Below the pieces are notes generated by a model. It had not been told where the DNA came from. It saw only the letters and a program-made list of their open reading frames with translations, and ran no database searches. From the NCBI GenBank assembly GCA_027488845.1, contig JAIYBC010000048.1:62001-126000 (forward strand): a stretch of DNA of 64,000 nt, in the 5' to 3' direction. The stretch comes from Verrucomicrobiales bacterium. Its GTDB lineage: Bacteria; Verrucomicrobiota; Verrucomicrobiia; Limisphaerales; UBA9464. This document shows positions 16,520 to 27,658 of this stretch, piece by piece. Every line of letters starts with the position of its first letter. Positions within the stretch are counted from its first letter, which is position 1. The position numbers and the translations under genes were made by a program.

Positions 16520-18253
16520 ATGGACGCCGAGCGCCCCTCTCCCGAAGACTCCCAGCATCTGGAAGTCATCGAGGCCTACCAGCGACAGGGCCGCTGGATC
16601 CTTCCGGGATTCCTGGCCCTGGTGATCGTCATCGGCTTGGGAGTCATCTACTTCCGTCCCGCCTATCGCTGGATGAAGGAACGCCGGGGAGACGTCCTCG
16701 CCGCGGAAGCGAGGGCCGCCATGGACGCGGGCGAGTACGAGAGGGCCATGACGAGGATCCGTTCCGCGGTGCAGTTGGCCCCCAAGCGCATCACCGTGGC
16801 CCGGATCACGGCGGAGATGTGCGACCTCTACGGCATGCCGGAAGCCTTGGGATATTGGCAAACCGTGGTCACCGACCCAAAGGCGACGCGCCTGGACCGA
16901 CAGCGGTTCGTCTCGTCGGCGCTCAACCTCGGCCGTGAAGACATGGCCCAGAAGGAATTGGCCGAACTGGTGAAGGAGGACGAGGCGGATCTGGAGAACC
17001 TCCGTCTGAGCATCCGCTTCCTCCGCCAACGGGGTGACGTGGAGGCGGCGATCCTGGTGGCGAGGCGAGGCATCGTCCTCCATCCCACCAACGCGGCACC
17101 CAAGCTGGCGCTGGCCAGCCTGATGGCGGGCCACCCCCTTCCCAGCTATCGGGATGAGGGACGCGGTCTCCTTCGCGAGCTGGCCCGGGGTGAAAGCCCG
17201 GTCCAGATCGAGGCGCTCAAGACCCTCGCGGTGGACAAGTCGCTTCCCCGCGAGGAGAAGGTCTCCATCGCCGGCCAACTGGAACGCCTGAAGGACCCTC
17301 CCGTCGACTCCGTGCTGACCCTGCAGACACTGCGTCTGGAGTTGGCACCGGATTCCCGTGGCATGCTGGTCACCCGCACCACCGAGTTGGCGACGCAACG
17401 GACCAATTCGGCGGAGGTGGCGCTGTGCCTGAAATGGCTCTACGAGAACGGCGCCTCGGAAATGCTGCTGGAGGCCATGCCTCTGGTCCGGGCTCGCAAG
17501 GATCAGGGCTGGATCTTCTGGCACTGCACGGCACTCGGAGGCGTCGGCCGATGGGACGACCTGGTCGCACTGCTCGAAGACAAGGAGTTGCCCCTGGTGC
17601 AGTATCGTCGGTTCGGACTTCTGGCTTCCGCAGCCCATGCCCAGGGGAATGCCGAAGCCGCGCGAAACCACCTCGATTCCGCCATCGGATTCGCACGCGG
17701 ACTGCCCGAGGAGCTCCAGAGGTTGGCCAAGCTTTCAGAGCAGATGGGCGACCACAACATGGCGATGCGCGCCTGGGTGGAACTGCTCGAACTGCCGTCG
17801 TTGGCCAAATCGGCCGCCCTTCAGGTCCTTCGGCTTTCCCAGCTGGGGGATCGTCCCGACCTGGTGATCTTGGCCACCCGTCGGCTTCTGGGCCTGAATC
17901 CAACCGACCTACTGGCCCTCAACGAGTTGGCGTACACGCTGTTTCTCGAAGGCCGCCGCGACCCCGAGGTGGAGAAGCAGTTCCTGGTTGCCGCCCTACA
18001 GGCCGATTCCCAGCCGGGCCTCAAGATCACCTTGGCCCTGTTCTACCTGCAGGACAACAGGGCCTCGGAGGCGCTGGACGTGTTGGAGGGAAACGGGTTG
18101 GACCTCGAACGCGCCCCCTACCGCTGGAGGATGATCCACGCTCTGGTTCTTGCGGCCAACCAGCAGCGGGAAGTGGCGAAGAAGATTTTCGCCGGGTTGG
18201 ATGTGGAACGCCTGAAGGCGGCGGAGAGAAACCTCGCCAGCAGGTGGCTTTGA
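16520..18253 (+). CDS. Membrane-anchored TPR protein, paralogue A
   Basis: 577 residues. A short cytoplasmic N-terminus (about 1-26, with acidic and Gln residues), one membrane helix (about 27-45, ILPGFLALVIVIGLGVIYF), then a long periplasmic helical-repeat domain. Several repeats match TPR pairs (AEARAAMDAGEYERAMTRIRSAVQLAPK; LALNELAYTLFLEGRRDPEVE; LALFYLQDNRASEALDVLEGNG). The same plan, one TM and then degenerate TPRs to the end, is found in the two adjacent genes at 52000 and 53897, so I treat it as a related member. It probably forms a scaffold on the outer side of the inner membrane; no partner is evident. It starts 57 bases after the ilvB terminator. Confidence 0.85.
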   Translation: MDAERPSPEDSQHLEVIEAYQRQGRWILPGFLALVIVIGLGVIYFRPAYRWMKERRGDVLAAEARAAMDAGEYERAMTRIRSAVQLAPKRITVARITAEMCDLYGMPEALGYWQTVVTDPKATRLDRQRFVSSALNLGREDMAQKELAELVKEDEADLENLRLSIRFLRQRGDVEAAILVARRGIVLHPTNAAPKLALASLMAGHPLPSYRDEGRGLLRELARGESPVQIEALKTLAVDKSLPREEKVSIAGQLERLKDPPVDSVLTLQTLRLELAPDSRGMLVTRTTELATQRTNSAEVALCLKWLYENGASEMLLEAMPLVRARKDQGWIFWHCTALGGVGRWDDLVALLEDKELPLVQYRRFGLLASAAHAQGNAEAARNHLDSAIGFARGLPEELQRLAKLSEQMGDHNMAMRAWVELLELPSLAKSAALQVLRLSQLGDRPDLVILATRRLLGLNPTDLLALNELAYTLFLEGRRDPEVEKQFLVAALQADSQPGLKITLALFYLQDNRASEALDVLEGNGLDLERAPYRWRMIHALVLAANQQREVAKKIFAGLDVERLKAAERNLASRWL

Positions 18254-18331: not shown

Positions 18332-19372
18332 TCAGGCCTTCAAAGCACGGCGGCGACGCCAGACGGTCATTCCGCCGACGGCGACCACGAAGGAGATCGC
18401 GGCGTAGGTCGAGGGTTCAGGAACCCCCACCCAAGCAGGACCATGGATCTCGGCATTGAACAGCGAGTACTTCACGGCCGCGGAACCATCGAGGTTGGAA
18501 TTTCCCTCCAAGGTCGCTTCCGGAGCCAAAATCGATCCGTACCAGTTCCGGTTCAGTTCCACGACTTCGTCCGTGTCGTAGAAGTTCCAAAGAACCCGGG
18601 AGCGCAGGTTCACATCGCTGGTGATGCTGCCCAGGAAATTGGCCTGCGAGTTGAAGTCGTTGCTCCGGAAACCGGCGATGTTGACGATGATGAAGTCCAG
18701 CGAACTGACCTGGCGTCCGTTCAAGTCGAACTGGACCTCGGCGTTCTGGGTCTCAAAAATCGACGAAGCTTGGGATTCAGTCAGGTTGAAGACGACCTGC
18801 CGGACCGAAGTCGACGCCGGGATCGTGAACGTGGTCCGGGTGCCCGAAGTGCTGGTGGTCGCGTTTGCCGAGTAGTTGCTGTACGTCGACGCCTCCGTGA
18901 GCACGGCGTTGTAGACGGAATCAAAGGTCGACGATTGAGCGGAACCGGGGTTGGAGGGGCGCTGGATGGTGGCCCCGTTCGAGGACTGCTGAAGCTGGAT
19001 CGGGGTAGAGGGGGCGTCTGAGGAGTTCTGATCCAGGAACGCGCTGCCGTTCATGAGACGGATGACGTCTCCAGAATCCGTACGGATCCGATCACCCACC
19101 AGCAGACTCGGGGTGCTCTGCGAAGAAATGGGAGTGATCCCCTCGGAATTCGGCCCACCCAGTCGGGAACCGATCTCGATGTTCTGACCCGTGTTTCCGG
19201 AACTCGAACGCGTATCGATGTTCTGGGCAATCACCCTCCCATACACGTGGTTCGCCTGATACAGGGTGTGACGAACGATGAGATTGTAGGTGCTCAGCTG
19301 GCTCTGTGCCTGGGCGGCCCCGGCAAGTCCGGCGCCGATGACGAGTGCTGACCAACTATGTTTGTGATTCAT
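18332..19372 (-). CDS. PEP-CTERM protein with choice-of-anchor-A body
   Basis: 346 residues. A signal peptide with cleavage around AGAAQA, a secreted body, and the sorting tail VPEPSTYAAISFVVAVGG followed by WRRRRALKA: the PEP motif, one membrane helix and a basic end, recognised by exosortase. The body matches the choice-of-anchor-A pattern: YNLIVRHTLYQANHVYGRVIAQNI at the start and NRNWYGSILAPEATLEGNSNLDG...NAEIHGPAWV before the tail. Such proteins are secreted and probably end up in the cell surface or exopolysaccharide. The start has a strong AGGAGG only two bases before the ATG. No exosortase or other PEP-CTERM gene is in the window. Confidence 0.9.
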   Translation of the reverse strand: MNHKHSWSALVIGAGLAGAAQAQSQLSTYNLIVRHTLYQANHVYGRVIAQNIDTRSSSGNTGQNIEIGSRLGGPNSEGITPISSQSTPSLLVGDRIRTDSGDVIRLMNGSAFLDQNSSDAPSTPIQLQQSSNGATIQRPSNPGSAQSSTFDSVYNAVLTEASTYSNYSANATTSTSGTRTTFTIPASTSVRQVVFNLTESQASSIFETQNAEVQFDLNGRQVSSLDFIIVNIAGFRSNDFNSQANFLGSITSDVNLRSRVLWNFYDTDEVVELNRNWYGSILAPEATLEGNSNLDGSAAVKYSLFNAEIHGPAWVGVPEPSTYAAISFVVAVGGMTVWRRRRALKA

Positions 19373-20062: not shown

Positions 20063-21112
20063 ATGCCTCCCGTCAGGACCCTGCTCTCGACTTCGCCCCT
20101 TCTCGCCTTCTGGTTGTCGCTGGCCCCCCACCCGCTCGTCGCCGAAATCACTCCCACGGTTCGCACGAGTGAAACGAATACCGAGGAGGTGCTGCTTCAC
20201 CGCATGCCCGCCGCTCCCGGTGGCACATTGAAGGTGCGCATCGAGTTCGGCGGCATCGAGGTCTCCACGAATTCCACCAATGAGGTGGTCTTCGATTCCC
20301 TGCGTCGGATCTCCATGGGGAACCGGAAGAAGGAAGCCGATTTCCTCGAAGACCGCCCCATCCGCATCACCGAGGAAGGCGACACGCTCGTGTTCACGGC
20401 GGTCCGGAAGGATGCCGTCGGCGGAAAATGGAACTGGAACGTCCTCCGCAACCGCAGGACCGAGGCGAAGCTCAGGATTTCGGTCCCCACACGCTTCAGG
20501 GTGGAACTCGACACCGCCGGCGGTCCGATCTCCGTCGCCGACGTCGAAGGCCCGGTGAAGGCCGACACCTCGGGCGGTTCCCTCCGCTTTTCCAGGATCC
20601 GTGGGCCCATCCACGGAGACACCTCGGGCGGCGGCATCCATGTCGATGACAGCGTGGGGGAGATCCATGTGGACACCTCCGGAGGTGGGATCGAGGTCAA
20701 GGGCGGGGGTGGATCTCTCCATGCCGACACATCGGGCGGCCCCATTGCGGTCCGCAACTTCAACGGATCCGCGACCGTCGACACCTCCGGTGGCGGCATC
20801 GTCCTGGAGAAGGTCGGCGGCGCCCTCAACGGTTCGACCAGCGGCGGCGGAATCCAGGCCGAACTCCCCTCCCCCGTCCCGGGCGACGTCCACCTGGAGA
20901 CGTCCGGTGGTGGCATCACCGTGCGGACCGCTTCGGATGCCAAGTTCCACCTCGATGCCGAAAGCTCCGGGGGTGGCGTCTCCAGCGAACTGCCGGTCTC
21001 TTCACCGGAGAAACGGGAGCGCGACGAACTCCGCGGACAGGTCAACGGAGGAGGCCCCAAGGTTCACCTCCGCACCAGCGGCGGCGGAATCCGGATCAAG
21101 AAGACCTCTTGA
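20063..21112 (+). CDS. DUF4097-type exported beta-repeat protein
   Basis: 349 residues. A signal peptide (LLSTSPLLAFWLSLAPHPLVAE), then a first domain (about 50-140), then many short beta-repeats that all carry the wording D/T-TSGGG-I or a variant (for example KADTSGGSL, HGDTSGGGI, HVDTSGGGI, HADTSGGPI, TVDTSGGGI, HLETSGGGI, HLRTSGGGI), spaced about 18-20 residues apart. This is the DUF4097 (DUF4098) beta-solenoid style seen in bacterial envelope proteins near anti-sigma or signalling genes. The function is unknown; the repeat face suggests binding or adhesion. Its 3' end overlaps the converging epimerase-like gene by 17 bases. Confidence 0.87.
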   Translation: MPPVRTLLSTSPLLAFWLSLAPHPLVAEITPTVRTSETNTEEVLLHRMPAAPGGTLKVRIEFGGIEVSTNSTNEVVFDSLRRISMGNRKKEADFLEDRPIRITEEGDTLVFTAVRKDAVGGKWNWNVLRNRRTEAKLRISVPTRFRVELDTAGGPISVADVEGPVKADTSGGSLRFSRIRGPIHGDTSGGGIHVDDSVGEIHVDTSGGGIEVKGGGGSLHADTSGGPIAVRNFNGSATVDTSGGGIVLEKVGGALNGSTSGGGIQAELPSPVPGDVHLETSGGGITVRTASDAKFHLDAESSGGGVSSELPVSSPEKRERDELRGQVNGGGPKVHLRTSGGGIRIKKTS

Positions 21113-22010
21113 TCCCATTCCCTTCGAACATCCGTCCGAGACCGTCGGCGAAGCTCTCCTCGCGAATCCCGAACACCCGCCTCGCCGGAAGCGGATCCCC
21201 GACATTGTCCTCGTCCAGCATGAGGATCTGATCCCGATTCAGCGGCGGCGCCTGCCGGAACACGGACGGGAAAAGCCATTCCAGGAACCGGGCCTGCCCC
21301 CAGGCAACCGACCGTGGAACCACCAACCGGAGGCGCCGCCGCCCCATCGCCCGATCGATCGCGTCCAGGATTTCACGCAACGTCAGCGGGACCGGACCGC
21401 ACACGTCGAAGGTCTCCCCGATCCCCAGGGATTCCACCGTCGCGCGGACGAAGCACCGGGCGACCGATTCGACATCCACCGGCTGAAGCCGCGAATGGCC
21501 GCCGCCGACCACGGGAACCACCGGCGACCATCTTCCGATCCGGGCGAACAGGTTCACGAAGCCGTCGCCCTTGCCGTAGATCACCGAAGGCCGGAACACC
21601 GTCCAATCCAACCCCGAGGCCCGCACCGCCTGGTCCGCCTCCCATTTGCTGCGGTGATATCGGGCGACCGCATCGGGTCGCGTCCCCAACGCGCTCATGT
21701 GCACCCATCGGCGCACGCCAGCGGCCCGGGCAGCCTCCAAAACCCGCCGGGCACCCTCGGTGTGGACCCCTTCGTAGGTCTGGCCCGGTGCCTCGGAGAT
21801 GATCCCGACCAGATGGATCACACGGTCGCATCCAGCCATTGCACGGTCCAGCGAACCCCGGTCGAGGACGGAACCGGCGTATCCCTCGGACAGCCCTCCC
21901 AGACCCCTTCCGCGACGGGAAAGCAGGCGGTGCGGGATTCCGGCCTCCGAGAGACCTCGGGAGATCGAACGACCGACAAATCCGGTTCCACCGGTGATCA
22001 GGACCTTCAT
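21096..22010 (-). CDS. NAD(P)-binding epimerase-like protein (NDUFA9-type SDR)
   Basis: 304 residues. The Rossmann loop GGTGFVGRSISRGL is near residue 7, followed by the SDR middle (RVIHLVGIISEAPGQTYEGVHTEGARRVLEAA) and a KWEADQAVRAS segment; the YxxxK pair appears as YHRSKWEAD. This is the atypical SDR branch that includes complex I NDUFA9 and chloroplast/bacterial relatives. Some members stabilise complex I or bind quinone, lipids or nucleotide-sugars; the substrate here is unknown. The ATG at 22010 overlaps the hybrid kinase stop by four bases (ATGA), so it is the third gene of a coupled trio with the squalene/phytoene synthase and the kinase. Confidence 0.85.
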   Translation of the reverse strand: MKVLITGGTGFVGRSISRGLSEAGIPHRLLSRRGRGLGGLSEGYAGSVLDRGSLDRAMAGCDRVIHLVGIISEAPGQTYEGVHTEGARRVLEAARAAGVRRWVHMSALGTRPDAVARYHRSKWEADQAVRASGLDWTVFRPSVIYGKGDGFVNLFARIGRWSPVVPVVGGGHSRLQPVDVESVARCFVRATVESLGIGETFDVCGPVPLTLREILDAIDRAMGRRRLRLVVPRSVAWGQARFLEWLFPSVFRQAPPLNRDQILMLDEDNVGDPLPARRVFGIREESFADGLGRMFEGNGIKRSS

Positions 22011-24619
22011 CGACGGCGCACACGGTCCATCACCTGGGCCATTTCGTCCAACCGGTAGGGCTTGGGAAGCACCCCGGCGAATCCATGCTGGAGGTGGTCC
22101 GCCATGATGGGATCGACCGAATAGCCGCTGGAAACCACCGTAACCACCTCGGGATCGCCTTCCCGGAGCATCGCGGCCGTCTCCAGTCCGCCCAGGCCGT
22201 CCGGGATGGTCAGGTCGAGCAGCACGACATCGTACCTCTTTCCGTGGTCCATGGCTTGTCGGTACAACTGGATCGCGTCCATGCCGTTGGCGACGCATTC
22301 GACCTCGTAGCCCAGGCGCCGCAGCATCGCCCTCGCCACGTCGCGGATGGCCTGCTCATCGTCCATGACCAGCACCCTCCCGATCCCACGGACCGGCTTG
22401 CCCGGCACGGCGACCTCGGACACGGGCACCTCGTCGGTGGCCGGCAGGAAGACGTCGAACGTCGCACCGTGGCCCGGTTCCGAGCGGACAGCGATGTCCC
22501 CGCGGTGCTGCCGGACGATGCGGAAGGCGGTGGCCAGCCCAAGGCCGGTCCCACCGGACTTCGTGGAGAAGTAGGGCTCGAAGATGCGGGCCAGGTGGGT
22601 CGGGGCGATGCCGGGTCCGTCGTCGGCGACGGATACCCGGACGTAGCGTCCCTCGCCGAGGCGGGGCATCGCCCCCAGGTTGGCCATGTCGATGCGGATG
22701 ACTCCGCCTCCGGGCATCGCCTGGGATGCGTTGACGGTGAGATTCTGGATCACGCGCGAGATCTGGGCGGGATCAACCGCGGTGGTCCACAGCCCGGGTT
22801 CGATCGTGAACTCGCAGCGCACCGTGGCTCCGCGGACGGCGAACTCAGCCGTGTCCTTCACCAACTCCCGCAGGTCGGTCGGCCGCACCACCGGCGCTCC
22901 GCCCTTGGAGAAGGTCAACAGCTGCTGGGTGAGCCGCTGGGCCCGACGAACGCCGTGTTCCGTCCTCTCCAACAGCCCCTCCAACTCGTTCCCCTTCGTG
23001 TCCCGCGCAAGGGAGAGGTTGCCGAGGATGGCGGTGAGGTAGTTGTTGAAGTCGTGGGCGATGCCGCCGGCCAGCAGGCCCACCGACTCGAGTCGTCCGG
23101 CCCGGATCTGCTCCTCTTCCAACTGCCGCCGCTCGGTCAGGTCACGGAGCACCACCACCCGGCCTTCCGCCCCCGCCCGGCGGGCCCTCAGCGGCGACAG
23201 CGCCACGACGAGGGTCCGCTCCTGCAGTCCCTCCCGCGCGAATTGGAAGAACCCCGGGATCAGGTCGGATTCCGTCACCCCCCGCAGCCGGACGCCCAGT
23301 TCGAGGAACGGCTGCCCCGATTCCCGGTGACGCAGGCTCAGGATGCGCGAGACCTCCACGCCAAGCACCTCGCGCTCGCTCCGGCCGAGCAGGTTCTCGG
23401 CGGCGCGGTTCAGCGACAGGATCCGCCCGTCGACGTCGGTGGTGATGACCGCGTCGCCGATGGACTTCAGGGTGACCGCCAGTCGGTCGCGCTCGTCGGC
23501 GATCTGCCGTTCCCGCTCGGCCAGTTCCGCCAGCGCCCTCCGGGCACGGGCTTCGGACTCGCCGATCTTCGAAGCGGACAACTCCGCATCCCTCCTCCGC
23601 AGGGCGAGGATGGATGCCACCACCGAGAGCACCAGGGTGAACGCGGACCCCACGACGAGGACCACGCCCGGCAGCTGTGAATGGAACTGATCGACGAAGG
23701 CCTGCGAATCGAGGAACTCAACCCGCCAGCGACGCCCCAGCCTCTCGATGGAACCCTCCATCGTGCGGGTGGGTGCCGCGGGATCCACGGAGGACATGAA
23801 CACGGGCGCCGCGGCGGGATCCGGGTCCGCCATGATCCGAAACCGGATTCCATCCAGACCGCGTCGGTAGGGCTCCCAGAGCCGCTCCGTCAGGATCGAG
23901 CCGAAGACGAAGCCGACCGGATGGGAATTGCTCTCCATCCGGGCGTCCGGCGGCTGGACGAAAACGGGGAGCACCACCAGGACGCCTTGGAACGAATTCG
24001 AGCTGAACTCGCGATGGAGCAGGATCGGACCGGAAGCGGCCAGGCTCCGCGTCCGGACCGCCGCCCGAAGGACCTCCAGACGTCCGGGCTCCTGGCCGAG
24101 ATCCCAGCCGATCGCGCGGATCGCTCCGCCGTCGAAGTCGCTGATCTGGGTGATCGGATAGACATGGCCTCCCTCTACCGCTCCACCGGGCCGCTGGATG
24201 AAGTAGTCCGGATTGCCGGATCGGCGGATCCGGGCGACGTGGTCGTCGATCTCGTTGGTCCCCACCCTTTCCGCGAACCCGATGTCGAGCAGCACGCCGT
24301 TGGTCAGATTGCCGATCGCGGTACGCAGATAGGCTTCCAACTCGAACGGCGCGACCTGCTGGCTTGAGGAGAAAAAACCGGCGACACCCCGAAGGAAGAC
24401 CTCATAGGACAGCAGCACCGAATCGAGACGCCCCAGGAGTTCCTCGGACTTCTGACGGAAGGACAGTTCCTCGCGTCTCTGGTACTGGCTCCGTAGCGAG
24501 CCGGAGAGGACGCCGCTGAAGACCAGTCCTGAAACCAGCACCAGGTAGGCGAGGGCGAAGGTCCGGAGATGGCCGGCCACCCGTGTCGACAAAAGCGGAC
24601 TGGGCGGCCGGGTGGTCAC
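22007..24619 (-). CDS. Hybrid histidine kinase with CHASE, PAS and receiver domains
   Basis: 870 residues from a GTG at 24619 that overlaps the preceding stop by four bases (GTGA). Membrane helix 1 is at about 20-40; the extracytoplasmic CHASE domain at about 65-300 (YPITQISDFDGG and GWDLGQEPGRLEVL are typical); helix 2 at 317-341; a PAS domain at about 375-495; the HisKA box with phospho-acceptor His522 (GGIAHDFNN); the ATPase at about 610-725 with N626, DDGPG at 666-670 and TGLGL at 691-695; and a C-terminal receiver at about 748-868 with Asp802 and Lys853. The CHASE domain should sense a small external ligand. There is no separate regulator gene next to it, so output may go through a His-phosphotransfer protein elsewhere. 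Confidence 0.93.
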   Translation of the reverse strand: MTTRPPSPLLSTRVAGHLRTFALAYLVLVSGLVFSGVLSGSLRSQYQRREELSFRQKSEELLGRLDSVLLSYEVFLRGVAGFFSSSQQVAPFELEAYLRTAIGNLTNGVLLDIGFAERVGTNEIDDHVARIRRSGNPDYFIQRPGGAVEGGHVYPITQISDFDGGAIRAIGWDLGQEPGRLEVLRAAVRTRSLAASGPILLHREFSSNSFQGVLVVLPVFVQPPDARMESNSHPVGFVFGSILTERLWEPYRRGLDGIRFRIMADPDPAAAPVFMSSVDPAAPTRTMEGSIERLGRRWRVEFLDSQAFVDQFHSQLPGVVLVVGSAFTLVLSVVASILALRRRDAELSASKIGESEARARRALAELAERERQIADERDRLAVTLKSIGDAVITTDVDGRILSLNRAAENLLGRSEREVLGVEVSRILSLRHRESGQPFLELGVRLRGVTESDLIPGFFQFAREGLQERTLVVALSPLRARRAGAEGRVVVLRDLTERRQLEEEQIRAGRLESVGLLAGGIAHDFNNYLTAILGNLSLARDTKGNELEGLLERTEHGVRRAQRLTQQLLTFSKGGAPVVRPTDLRELVKDTAEFAVRGATVRCEFTIEPGLWTTAVDPAQISRVIQNLTVNASQAMPGGGVIRIDMANLGAMPRLGEGRYVRVSVADDGPGIAPTHLARIFEPYFSTKSGGTGLGLATAFRIVRQHRGDIAVRSEPGHGATFDVFLPATDEVPVSEVAVPGKPVRGIGRVLVMDDEQAIRDVARAMLRRLGYEVECVANGMDAIQLYRQAMDHGKRYDVVLLDLTIPDGLGGLETAAMLREGDPEVVTVVSSGYSVDPIMADHLQHGFAGVLPKPYRLDEMAQVMDRVRRR

Positions 24620-25647
24620 GGCATCCGGCTCCTCATGGCACGTCTCTGGCCCGTGAACTGCGCTTCCCAGAGCCCGCGGAACGGAAGCCTCCACACGGAC
24701 GACCAGAGGATCCCCCGCACCGCGCCACGGTCCAACTTGATCCGATGTCCCGGCTCGAGGACGGGGCCTTCCCGCAGCAGGCCCGTTGTCCGGATGCCGA
24801 TCAGCACGGGCCAGGCACAGGCCAATCGAACCCGGACGCACGACCGGGGCACGGAGGTGGTGTAGCGCCAGCCGGACTCGAGATGGTTTTCGGCCAGGTC
24901 CAACCAACGTCGGTACACCGGGCGCAGCGCTTCGGAACGTGCGGCTTCCAACAGGTCCCTGGGCTCCAGTCCGACCTCCGCGAGCTCGCTGGCAGGAAGG
25001 TAGCAGCGGCCGGCCTGCAGGTCCCTCGGCAGGTCCCTCAGGATGTTCACCAACTGGAGGCCCTTCCCGAATCGGACCCCATCCTCCAGCAGCTTGGCAT
25101 CGTCCAGTTGGGCGCCGGGAAAGACCGACTTCCGACACAGCCGGGTCCAGAACTCCCCGACACAGCCGGCGACCCGGTAGGTGTAGTCGTCCAACTCCGA
25201 CGCCGTCGCCAAGGCGCGGACCGTCCCCGGTTCCAGCGTGCCAAAACGCCGCAGGTCGAGGACCTGTCCCGAGACGATCACGGCCAAGACATCCCGGATC
25301 CTCTCCTGCTCGAAGGCGTCACACAGATCGAGCAACTGGACCGCCGACGGCAGCCGCGCCAGCAAACGGCCTTCGGCCTCCGTGATTCCTGCGTCCGAAC
25401 CCAGGAACCGGGAGAAGTCGGGGCGATTCACGGCGTCGCCGCGGATCCAGCTTCCCAACGATTCCAAGGTCCCCAGACGCTCCTCCACCGGCAGACCGGA
25501 TGCGTCGGCGACGGTGTCGGTGGCCCGGGCGAGAAGATAGGCGAGGCTGATCGGCGTCCGGACCGCCGCCGGCAGGACCCAAAGCGTCAGGTAGAACGAG
25601 CGGGACACCTCCCGCAGCAGGTCGGTCAGCAGACCCTCCGCCGGCAT
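24616..25647 (-). CDS. Squalene/phytoene synthase family protein
   Basis: 343 residues from the ATG at 25647; a GTG 30 bases upstream would add ten residues. Trans-isoprenyl head-to-head synthase motifs are present: a first Asp-rich box DTVAD near residue 44 and a second region GKGLQLVNILRDLPRDLQAGRCYLP near residue 196-220 with the paired aspartates. The DYTYRVAGCVGEFW segment between them resembles squalene synthases more than phytoene synthases, so squalene (for hopanoids or sterols) or a related C30 product is the best guess. The C-terminal 50 residues are basic and have no clear domain. No further hopanoid or carotenoid genes are in the window; instead it is coupled to a sensor kinase gene. 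Confidence 0.88.
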   Translation of the reverse strand: MPAEGLLTDLLREVSRSFYLTLWVLPAAVRTPISLAYLLARATDTVADASGLPVEERLGTLESLGSWIRGDAVNRPDFSRFLGSDAGITEAEGRLLARLPSAVQLLDLCDAFEQERIRDVLAVIVSGQVLDLRRFGTLEPGTVRALATASELDDYTYRVAGCVGEFWTRLCRKSVFPGAQLDDAKLLEDGVRFGKGLQLVNILRDLPRDLQAGRCYLPASELAEVGLEPRDLLEAARSEALRPVYRRWLDLAENHLESGWRYTTSVPRSCVRVRLACAWPVLIGIRTTGLLREGPVLEPGHRIKLDRGAVRGILWSSVWRLPFRGLWEAQFTGQRRAMRSRMP

Positions 25648-25792
25648 GTCCACCGCTTTCGTCTCAACCTCCACGACCCCATCCAAACAGAGCCGCTCCC
25701 CCGATGCCAAGCGCGCGACGCCGCGAGGTGCCGAATCCCCGGGGTTCTTCCATTGAATCCGTACCTGCCCTGTCGAATGGTTTCGGGGAACC

Positions 25793-27658
25793 ATGCTGCC
25801 GAACGACCCGGACCCCATTCCGTCCACGGAGGACGCCGACCTGGTCGGCGCGGCCTTGCGCCGTTCCCTTTTGGCGCTGGTCGTCCTCGGCGTCGTCGCC
25901 GGCGGCGCCGTCTGGTGGTTCGCACGCCCCGCAGCCCCCAAGGACACCCGCATCACCCCACTCGAGGCCCCCCTGGCCGCCAGCAGCGGTGCCCGCCCGC
26001 CGCAGGCCCGCTTCACCGCGGTCGGAGCCGAATGCGGCGTGGCATTCGTCCACCGCAACGGCGCCTCCGGATCGAAGCTGCTCCCGGAAACCATGGGCGG
26101 CGGCGTGGCATTCCTCGACTTCGACGCCGACGGCGATCCGGACCTGCTGCTGGTCAACTCCGGCGACTGGCCGGGGTCGACCAACCCTCCCGCCACCTCC
26201 TTCTCCCGCCTCTTCCGCAACGACACGCCCGCCGGCGGACCTTGGCGCTTCACCGATGTCACCGGGGGCTCGGGACTCGACCGCCCCTTCTTCGGGATGG
26301 GTGCCGCCTGCGCGGACTACGACAGCGACGGCCTCACGGACGTCCTCCTGACCGGAGTGGGAGGGGTCCGTCTCCTCCGCAACCGCGGCGGGGCCCGCTT
26401 CGAGGACGTCACCCGGCAGGTGGGAATCCCGGGGGAAAGCGGCGACTGGACCACCGCCGCCTCCTGGTTCGACGCCGACAACGACGGTGACCTGGATCTC
26501 TTCGTGGGTCGTTATGTGGGCTGGTCGCCGGAACTCGACCGCGAGGTGAACAACCAACTCGTCGGCGTGGGCCGCGCCTACGGCCGTCCCTGGAACTTTC
26601 CCGGAACGGCTCCCAGCCTTTGGCGAAACGAAGGCCCAGCGCCGGACACCGGAACCACGCGGTTCACCGACGTCTCGGCGGCGAGCGGGCTCGTCGTCCG
26701 GAACCCCGCGACCGGCCATCCCATGGCCAAGACCCTGGCGGTCGCGCCCATCGACCTCAATGAGGACGGCTGGATGGACCTGGTCCTGGCCAACGACACC
26801 GTCCAGAACTTCGTCTTCACCAACCGCCACGACGGCACCTTCCGCGAGGTCGGCGCACAGAGCGGCATCGCCTTCGACGCCTACGGCCAGACGCGCGGAG
26901 CCATGGGCATCGACGCCGCCCGCTTCCGCAACGACCGCGCCCTCGGCATCGCGATCGGCAACTTCGCGAACGAGATGAACGCGCTCTACGTGCGACAGCC
27001 GGTGCGGGAACAACTGGTGTTCGCGGACGAGGCGATCCCCGAAGGCCTCGGCCCGGCGAGCCGGCTGCTGCTGAAATTCGGGCTTTTCTTCTTCGACTAC
27101 GACCTCGACGGGCGCCTCGACGTCCTCACCGCCAACGGCCACATCGAGGAGGACATCGAGAAGATCCAGGCCGACGTCCGCTACCGGCAGCCGGCACAGC
27201 TCTTCTGGAACGCCGGCGGCGGCAGCACCTTCACCGCGGCCGGTCCCGAGGAGTGCGGCCCCGACCTGTTCAAACCGGTCGTCGGACGCGGATCCGCCTA
27301 CGCCGACGTGGACGCGGACGGCGACCTGGACGTGGTCATCACCCAGATCAACGGCCCTCCCCTTCTCCTGCGAAACGACCAGCGATTGGGTCATGGATGG
27401 ATCCGCATCCGCCTGGTCGGGGACCGCGGCAACCCGGAGGCGATCGGGGCCTGGGTGACGGTCGCCACCAGCGACGGGCGACGTCTTTCGCGTCATGTCA
27501 TGCCGACCAAGAGCTACCTTTCGCAGAGCGAACTCACCTTGACCTTCGGCTTGGGAACCGCGACGGCTGACTCGGCCGAGGTCCGCTGGCCAGACGGCTC
27601 GAACACCCGGCACCCGATCCGGACCGGCGCGCAAAACGTCCTCCGTCGCGTCCGTTGA
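25793..27658 (+). CDS. CRTAC1-type FG-GAP/VCBS repeat protein with ASPIC/UnbV domain
   Basis: 621 residues. One membrane helix or uncleaved signal anchor near the N-terminus (about 25-45, SLLALVVLGVVAGGAVWWF), then seven or so beta-propeller blades carrying calcium-binding loops of the type DFDADGDPDLLLV, DYDSDGLTDVLLT, DADNDGDLDLFVG, DLNEDGWMDLVLA, DYDLDGRLDVLTA and DVDADGDLDVVIT. The C-terminal ASPIC/UnbV module (about 540-621: RLVGDRGNPEAIGAWVTVAT ... RWPDGS) is complete. These proteins are secreted or surface-bound in Verrucomicrobia and Bacteroidetes; enzymatic activity is not established. Its start is 145 bases from the divergent squalene synthase gene. Confidence 0.93.
   Translation: MLPNDPDPIPSTEDADLVGAALRRSLLALVVLGVVAGGAVWWFARPAAPKDTRITPLEAPLAASSGARPPQARFTAVGAECGVAFVHRNGASGSKLLPETMGGGVAFLDFDADGDPDLLLVNSGDWPGSTNPPATSFSRLFRNDTPAGGPWRFTDVTGGSGLDRPFFGMGAACADYDSDGLTDVLLTGVGGVRLLRNRGGARFEDVTRQVGIPGESGDWTTAASWFDADNDGDLDLFVGRYVGWSPELDREVNNQLVGVGRAYGRPWNFPGTAPSLWRNEGPAPDTGTTRFTDVSAASGLVVRNPATGHPMAKTLAVAPIDLNEDGWMDLVLANDTVQNFVFTNRHDGTFREVGAQSGIAFDAYGQTRGAMGIDAARFRNDRALGIAIGNFANEMNALYVRQPVREQLVFADEAIPEGLGPASRLLLKFGLFFFDYDLDGRLDVLTANGHIEEDIEKIQADVRYRQPAQLFWNAGGGSTFTAAGPEECGPDLFKPVVGRGSAYADVDADGDLDVVITQINGPPLLLRNDQRLGHGWIRIRLVGDRGNPEAIGAWVTVATSDGRRLSRHVMPTKSYLSQSELTLTFGLGTATADSAEVRWPDGSNTRHPIRTGAQNVLRRVR

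Follow-up and report, generated by a model that had tools for sequence, protein, structure and literature searches.

Three minus-strand genes in the window, a 64,000-nucleotide stretch of a Verrucomicrobiales genome (contig JAIYBC010000048.1), encode a squalene-synthase-type enzyme (Sqs-type; gene SQS), a hybrid histidine kinase with a CHASE domain and an extended short-chain dehydrogenase/reductase (SDR). We suggest that the kinase gene was inserted into an older SQS–SDR pair, that the Sqs-type enzyme takes over from HpnD in squalene synthesis, that the SDR is an oxidoreductase and that the kinase is an independent sensor. Taken as a whole, this is the best explanation of the locus and we regard it as reasonably probable. 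Gene structure, predicted fold, conservation, the insertion pattern and co-occurrence are shown directly; enzyme and sensor functions are inferred from them. Positions are those within the window. G labels denote comparison genomes, L labels fetched loci and C labels contigs; G000 is the window's own genome (5.39 Mb, 69 contigs, completeness 95.39). The three genes and their junctions are as follows.

24616..25674, minus strand: squalene-synthase-type (SQS_PSY) gene, 352 amino acids from GTG 25674 (PF00494, 4.5e-50; AlphaFold2 model; VIA-align)
25653 (GTG) and 25647 (ATG), minus strand: alternative SQS starts
24616..24619, minus strand: GTGA stop/start overlap, SQS to kinase
22007..24619, minus strand: hybrid histidine kinase, 870 amino acids (Pfam, motifs, hydropathy, dN/dS)
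22007..22010, minus strand: ATGA stop/start overlap, kinase to SDR
21096..22010, minus strand: NDUFA9/HpnA-like extended SDR, 304 amino acids, with a glycine motif (Pfam, NCBIfam, PDB sequence matches)

Gene order and the probable kinase insertion

An earlier note on this DNA described three minus-strand genes joined by GTGA and ATGA overlaps. Their frames, strands and overlaps are confirmed, and the trio consists of open genes conserved beyond chance. The note also guessed at a link between membrane lipid synthesis and signal sensing. The gene order across relatives supports neither a conserved trio nor a sensor–lipid module. We compared 59 genomes of the order, including G000: 19 of the same genus, 17 other members of the family and 23 from other families. 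Many are draft assemblies, in which absence from a single genome is weak evidence. The kinase lies between SQS and SDR in only 4 of the 19 congeners (G000, G005, G012 and G013; SQS identity of 87–92%). Judged by the refuting condition of the earlier note, gene order not kept even in close relatives, the trio therefore holds for its nearest kin but breaks down across the remaining congeners. In 14 genus genomes SQS directly neighbours the SDR without the kinase; in the last, G007, the contig ends about 0.7 kb past SQS and no SDR match was found. Spacing could be read in 11 of these 14, with one four-base overlap (G011) and otherwise gaps of 13–83 bases, the remaining three giving meaningless values. 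Elsewhere in the family the pair is adjacent in 4 of 17 genomes (G023, G024, G031 and G035), 5 of the 17 being unreadable at that place, and an older SQS–SDR pairing is thereby borne out for the genus and these four genomes. None of the 18 genomes of other families (23 in all) that have at least 1.2 kb of sequence downstream of SQS carries an SDR after it.

In the other 15 congeners, a search for the kinase at a threshold of E 1e-60 finds nothing. Of 320 genomes of the order, 4 hold a kinase orthologue (>1600 bits); the best score after these is 529 bits, at 39%. The closest protein relative in a GTDB scan, L128 (87% over part of the gene), is the gene in G005, and it alone among 80 named loci shows the trio. 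Because the pair occurs without the kinase in most congeners and the orthologue is confined to 4 of 320 genomes, the kinase looks like a late insertion of an existing gene into the two-gene unit, in the ancestor of the four-genome clade of uncultured bacteria, that was then kept by purifying selection; this is the simplest account. Pairwise ratios of nonsynonymous to synonymous substitution rates (dN/dS) are 0.125–0.149 for the kinase (four genomes), 0.120 for SQS (one pair) and 0.131–0.223 for the SDR. Downstream of the SDR, 4 of 4 trio genomes have a DUF4097 gene, a place taken by a trpC-like gene in 12 of the 15 other congeners, so the insertion may have accompanied a wider rearrangement.

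In more distant genomes SQS has other neighbours (the names argH, purF, lysA and trpC were assigned by eye from the sequences). An argH-like gene lies on the same strand within 100 bases upstream of SQS in 12 of the 23 other-family genomes (13 with G058), a lysA-like gene comes no more than 4 kb after SQS in 7 of the 23, and a purF-like gene precedes SQS in four family members (G021, G022, G028 and G034). The SQS gene has therefore had unrelated neighbours, often tightly spaced; in G041 and G050 the open reading frame coordinates place it in a four-base overlap with argH. Runs of argH, SQS, a gene or gap, and lysA (L060:8147-12687, L063:7658-12610 and L069:6040-10785) form an odd, amino-acid-synthesis neighbourhood.

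The overlaps themselves had been read as a sign of fixed stoichiometry and shared function. ATGA overlaps make up a substantial fraction of gene pairs and may permit coupled translation, according to the excerpted text of one study (PMC6728339), and the title of another links them often to subunits of complexes (PMC10666635). In the relatives' loci, 133 of 690 same-strand neighbour pairs, about one in five, overlap by four bases (the three sister trio loci included), a background that rules out the overlap as strong evidence of shared function. In a sample of G000 the rate is 6 of 41 pairs, with one 17-kb stretch counted twice and the SQS/kinase pair missed through a mis-called start. Both counts rest on rough, greedy gene calls, some with wrong starts. 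Since such overlaps are common among same-strand neighbours, they are no sign of special coupling here. As the kinase ends overlap both neighbours, we infer that the three genes are probably co-transcribed and translated by termination–reinitiation. Both junctions overlap by four bases in all four trio genomes, as GTGA between SQS and kinase in G000 and ATGA in the other three, and as ATGA between kinase and SDR throughout. The SQS start itself is probably upstream of the ATG at 25647 that the earlier note had chosen, because this codon is ACG in G013, whereas GTG 25674 and GTG 25653 are both kept in G012 and G013, the only two sisters in which the SQS 5′ end was read.

The kinase has a hydrophobic segment at about residues 20–42, a CHASE domain at 111–272, a second hydrophobic segment at about 315–341, then PAS, HisKA (His522), HATPase and receiver domains, as placed by Pfam, motifs and hydropathy; the Pfam scores are all over cut-off (CHASE 83.5, HisKA 37.2, HATPase_c 84.0 and receiver 64.1 bits). 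The protein probably works as a sensor in its own right, which acquired the expression of the operon, and not as a dedicated regulator with a role in lipid synthesis. A functional module in this clade, in line with the guess of the earlier note, would have the kinase tune squalene supply to a signal from the envelope or from lipids; this appears unlikely. Both overlaps persist in all four genomes despite the differing SQS/kinase junction sequence, and this retention, together with purifying selection on the kinase, allows a functional tie in the trio clade. Against such a module, 15 of the 19 congeners lack a kinase match at the threshold given above, Pfam finds no response regulator among the five window neighbours scanned, and the seven full-length kinase relatives whose surroundings were read lie in other contexts, five (G056, G070, G071, G155 and G156) beside ribF-like and/or moxR-like genes and two (G282 and G284) elsewhere. 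The clade is also richer in kinases overall: trio genomes have 100–144 first-look (hybrid-)kinase candidates, whereas the other 15 congeners have 24–50, which makes the chance insertion of one of them plausible. These results correct the idea of a conserved lipid-sensor trio.

The squalene-synthase-type enzyme

The earlier note had called the first protein a squalene/phytoene synthase; its full-length predicted fold places it with the squalene synthases. The AlphaFold2 model (mean pLDDT, a per-residue confidence score, of 92.2) aligns in VIA-align with eukaryotic squalene synthases over 301–324 residues at Z 29.6–32.8, spanning model residues 8–352 and including the C-terminal helices. CrtM-type chains give Z 23.8–24.9 and HpnC 23.1, and no other family among those covered by the VIA-align list ranks higher. 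Structural-alignment identity to the eukaryotic enzymes is 21–23%. Across 26 aligned Sqs-type sequences, DTxAD, xYTxRVAG and N-I-L/I-R-D-x-x-x-D are present in all and SRSF in 25; the Tyr of DYTYRVAG and a Lys-x-x-Arg motif are also kept. We take the Asp-rich motifs, SRSF and the catalytic Tyr to be functional motifs of squalene synthases. Hydropathy of the window protein reveals no strongly hydrophobic segment. Three family members (L082:8807-9943, L085:8338-9522 and L087:8946-10088) carry a proline-rich insert of about 40–55 residues after the LDLxRF stretch.

The curated models place the enzyme less clearly. All 26 aligned members match the same six NCBIfam families, the TIGR01559, HpnD and HpnC models among them. 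Assignment as HpnC was rejected, as the window enzyme scores 67.2 bits against a TIGR03464 cut-off of 250.45 and lies apart from the two HpnC rows of the tree described below; so was assignment as HpnD (81.4 bits against a TIGR03465 cut-off of 278.6), from which the tree also separates it and of which G000 has a separate copy on C33.

Squalene pathway genes in the order

Several further pathway genes are encoded in G000. A squalene–hopene cyclase scores 681.8 bits (hopene-cyclase cut-off 431.1), which supports the hopanoid and squalene context suggested in the earlier note, and C33 carries HpnD (291.3 against 278.6) and HpnK (257.0 against 232.6). Among the 59 order genomes, 57 have an Sqs-type gene (E 1e-25 or better), 58 have HpnD (E 1e-30 or better; 52 over cut-off) and 56 have both; a squalene–hopene cyclase match below 1e-40 is found in 56. 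None of the 59 has an HpnE over cut-off, an absence that is meaningful because the same search finds HpnE over cut-off elsewhere in the phylum. Pfam SQS_PSY matches number two in 51 genomes and one in G025, G052 and G057. Five genomes have three or four, owing to split genes in four cases and to a second HpnD-like gene in G021.

The Sqs-type enzyme would act in the supply of squalene for hopanoids, in which farnesyl diphosphate would be converted to presqualene diphosphate and then to squalene, to be folded by the squalene–hopene cyclase encoded elsewhere in the genome. Some or all of the presqualene diphosphate most likely comes from HpnD, also encoded elsewhere, and the window enzyme would carry out the NADPH-dependent second step in place of HpnC plus HpnE.

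Co-occurrence across the phylum

Support for this two-enzyme route, HpnD and then the Sqs-type enzyme, comes from the pattern of co-occurrence in 288 Verrucomicrobiota genomes. With the Sqs-type profile and TIGR03465 at E 1e-50 and with HpnC and HpnE over cut-off, 43 genomes have an Sqs-type gene, 55 an HpnD-type gene, 10 HpnE and 10 HpnC. The last two occur in the same 10 genomes, all of which have an HpnD-type gene and none an Sqs-type gene. Conversely, 42 of the 43 Sqs-type genomes have an HpnD-type gene, and none of the 43 has HpnC or HpnE over cut-off. Among the 55 genomes with an HpnD-type gene, zero overlap between the 42 and the 10 has a hypergeometric probability of about 1e-8, uncorrected for kinship; across all 288 the value is 0.19, which is not significant by itself.

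HpnC, HpnD and Sqs-type proteins stand apart from one another in a maximum-likelihood tree built from 40 chosen rows, which unites the HpnD-type rows of HpnCDE genomes (four) with those of Sqs-type genomes in one group (support 91/92). A fungal synthase joins the Sqs-type rows by a very long branch, a placement that is unsure. In the 10 HpnCDE genomes a single open frame of 730–1065 codons covers both the HpnD and the HpnE match, which looks like an HpnD–HpnE fusion; four such frames were fetched (L283:1271-3523, L284:2170-5361, L285:1949-4135 and L286:3050-5596).

We tentatively propose, at rather less than an even chance, that Verrucomicrobiota share an HpnD first step, followed in either of two interchangeable ways: by HpnC and HpnE (in about one-fifth of bearers) or, in the rest, by a single Sqs-type enzyme that has lost Phe288 and is specialized for presqualene diphosphate. 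The window enzyme would be of the second kind, and the HpnD step, not the window operon, would be genetically tied to a conserved NtrB/NtrC-like pair. If this is true, annotation by homology as squalene synthase would misstate the substrate in many Verrucomicrobiota, and in either route it would be HpnD that commits the pathway to squalene.

Nearly as likely is a self-sufficient Sqs-type enzyme, an ordinary squalene synthase of the one-enzyme kind that performs both half-reactions; HpnD would then serve to make something else, for instance a C30 carotenoid precursor. The full-length match of the predicted structure to one-enzyme synthases and the retention of most motifs checked fit this alternative, as do G432 and G052, which have an Sqs-type gene without an HpnD match at the thresholds used. 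It accounts less readily for the HpnD-type gene in 42 of 43 Sqs-type genomes. Two of these, G355 and G376, are 0.9-Mb genomes, 99% complete, with both genes, which have therefore survived strong genome reduction. An HpnK-like gene also follows hpnD at 45 of the 59 loci described below. The Phe288 position bears on both readings. We take this residue of the human enzyme to have a role in the second half-reaction, and titles of PDB entries record F288 mutants solved with presqualene diphosphate. Read from low-identity sequence alignment alone, the position is Ala in 23 and Gly in 3 of the 26 aligned sequences, which counts against the one-enzyme alternative and against the HpnD–Sqs-type route as well. 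In line with the one-enzyme alternative, in the excerpted text of a study of Verrucomicrobia (PMC9543262), squalene synthase is named as the squalene gene of neutrophilic members and hpnCDE as those of acidophilic members, and that text contains no word beginning hpnD.

Several other observations weigh against the HpnD–Sqs-type route or the assignments on which it is built. The window enzyme is far under the curated cut-offs of all three models, at 56.9 bits against 286.75 for TIGR01559 besides the HpnC and HpnD shortfalls given above. G432, a single contig that is 100% complete, has an Sqs-type gene and neither HpnD at E 1e-50 nor HpnC at E 1e-35, and therefore tells against a strict need for HpnD; it differs in this absence from its listed congeners of genus g120. 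Within the order, G052 has an Sqs-type gene without HpnD, and G025 and G057 have HpnD without an Sqs-type gene (89, 89 and 83% complete, respectively). Three genomes of the phylum sample (G444, G529 and G599) have an HpnD-type gene with neither partner. Weak HpnE-like matches, below cut-off, occur in 5 of the 59 order genomes, of which G012 is a trio genome, and also in one genome of the phylum sample, G418. Only 5 of the 288 genomes reach the HpnD cut-off, so that beyond the order the name 'HpnD-type' is based on similarity and on the tree; g120 genomes score about 195–216 bits against 278.6, and most HpnCDE genomes' own HpnD is also below cut-off. The tree holds only six HpnD-type proteins from outside the order, one on a long branch. 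In genera g120 and g159 of family f64 and in family f68 the match to the Sqs profile ends as early as about position 220–224 of 339, and besides the window's protein those of 10 of the 43 Sqs-type genomes were read. Nor is the co-occurrence independent of kinship, the 43 genomes falling into 14 genera and 6 families.

The phylum hits in f64 and f68 were also considered as possible HpnC, a reading rejected for the five rows read (four of f64 and one of f68): they match the Sqs-type at 125–205 bits and HpnD at 42–62, and they carry SRSF or SRSL and DTxAD.

The hpnD locus and signalling genes

Should these bacteria couple lipid synthesis to sensing, synteny would point to an NtrC-like gene upstream of hpnD, and not to the operon in the window. 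Of 59 hpnD loci (58 genomes, G021 counted twice), 54 have an NtrC-like gene on the same strand in the 4.5 kb upstream and 53 an NtrB-like kinase gene, and the downstream HpnK-like gene has the frequency given above. Neighbours taken for coaBC (50 of 59) and gmk (44 of 59) are also frequent there, so synteny alone need not mean regulation. In G000 itself (L098:5673-11181, at about 29.7–35.2 kb of C33), genes for an NtrC-like regulator, a small protein, HpnD, HpnK and an EamA-like protein run in one direction with three four-base overlaps. The regulator is the 3′ part of a called open reading frame at 5673-8687 of L098.

The SDR

The third protein had been described as NDUFA9-type, a kinship that PDB sequence matches support. 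The best match is 9g83_P (E 1.9e-33; a chain named NAD-dependent epimerase/dehydratase), and NDUFA9-type chains rank after it, the best chain of a complex I 39-kDa subunit at E 7.9e-20. An assignment as HpnA was rejected, with 90.2 bits against a TIGR03466 cut-off of 367.65. All 23 sequences compared keep Ser106, Tyr118 and Lys122, by position the catalytic triad, in keeping with an active oxidoreductase. The protein is probably such an enzyme, dependent on NAD(P).

Could the SDR stand in for HpnE and reduce hydroxysqualene beside the Sqs-type enzyme? Its adjacency to SQS in the genus, its invariant Ser, Tyr and Lys and the lack of HpnE in Sqs-type genomes would suit such a role, which we nevertheless consider highly improbable. 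SDR matches at E 1e-15 or better are found in 41 of the 59 order genomes, and none at that threshold in the other 18, whereas the Sqs-type gene is present in 57. Adjacency to SQS is seen in none of the 18 readable genomes outside the family, and HpnE is a flavoprotein of a fold other than that of SDRs.

Neighbouring features

Genes on the opposite strand flank the trio on both sides.

25793..27658, plus strand: divergent FG-GAP/UnbV-ASPIC gene (Pfam), with no claim of shared function with SQS
20063..21112, plus strand: convergent DUF4097/LiaG-like gene (Pfam), which marks the context of the kinase clade

The first adjoins SQS in 18 of the 19 same-genus genomes, the contig of the 19th (G005) being cut inside SQS, and is separated from it in the window by a divergent intergenic region of 118 bases (25675-25792). 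The second overlaps the 3′ end of the SDR gene by 17 bases. Farther along, the window encodes a Choice-of-anchor A/ice-binding-like adhesin with a PEP-CTERM sorting signal (18332-19372), near which lies a gene for a TPR protein with weak similarity to PrsT (16520-18253).

Comparison with known systems

With CHASE hybrid histidine kinases the window kinase shares the CHASE domain between two hydrophobic segments and the PAS, HisKA, HATPase and receiver domains; it differs in its lineage-specific position inside a lipid-enzyme operon. The SDR resembles NDUFA9-type SDRs and HpnA in sequence (90.2 bits with the HpnA model), but it is below the HpnA cut-off of 367.65 and has the catalytic triad in place.

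The Sqs-type enzyme most resembles the one-enzyme squalene synthases of the eukaryotic type (FDFT1/ERG9; bacterial Sqs/FdfT), with which it shares the predicted fold over its full length (Z 29.6–32.8), both Asp-rich motifs, SRSF, the Tyr of the VAG motif and the Lys-x-x-Arg motif. In contrast to FDFT1/ERG9, to which it is 21–23% identical, it is far below the TIGR01559 cut-off, has Ala or Gly at the Phe288 position and lacks a strongly hydrophobic segment, and enzymes of its type are nearly always accompanied by an HpnD-type gene. The HpnCDE route (Pan et al. 2015, as cited in the excerpted text of PMC5462960) has in common with the proposed route HpnD in the same genomes, followed in G000 by HpnK, but the 43 Sqs-bearing genomes are without HpnC or HpnE over cut-off.

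The nearest parallel is in Acidobacteria, some of which, according to those excerpts, carry hpnD and fdfT and lack hpnE or both hpnC and hpnE; their authors propose that fdfT may turn presqualene diphosphate into squalene and call for testing (PMC5462960). The likeness lies in hpnD occurring with a synthase of the one-enzyme type where hpnE, or hpnC and hpnE, are missing. There, the excerpts describe four cultivated strains with an fdfT near betaproteobacterial genes, whereas here the combination spans 14 genera of another phylum. Our results extend the Acidobacteria suggestion, of a one-enzyme-type synthase working on the product of HpnD, to a phylum-wide and sharply exclusive pattern.

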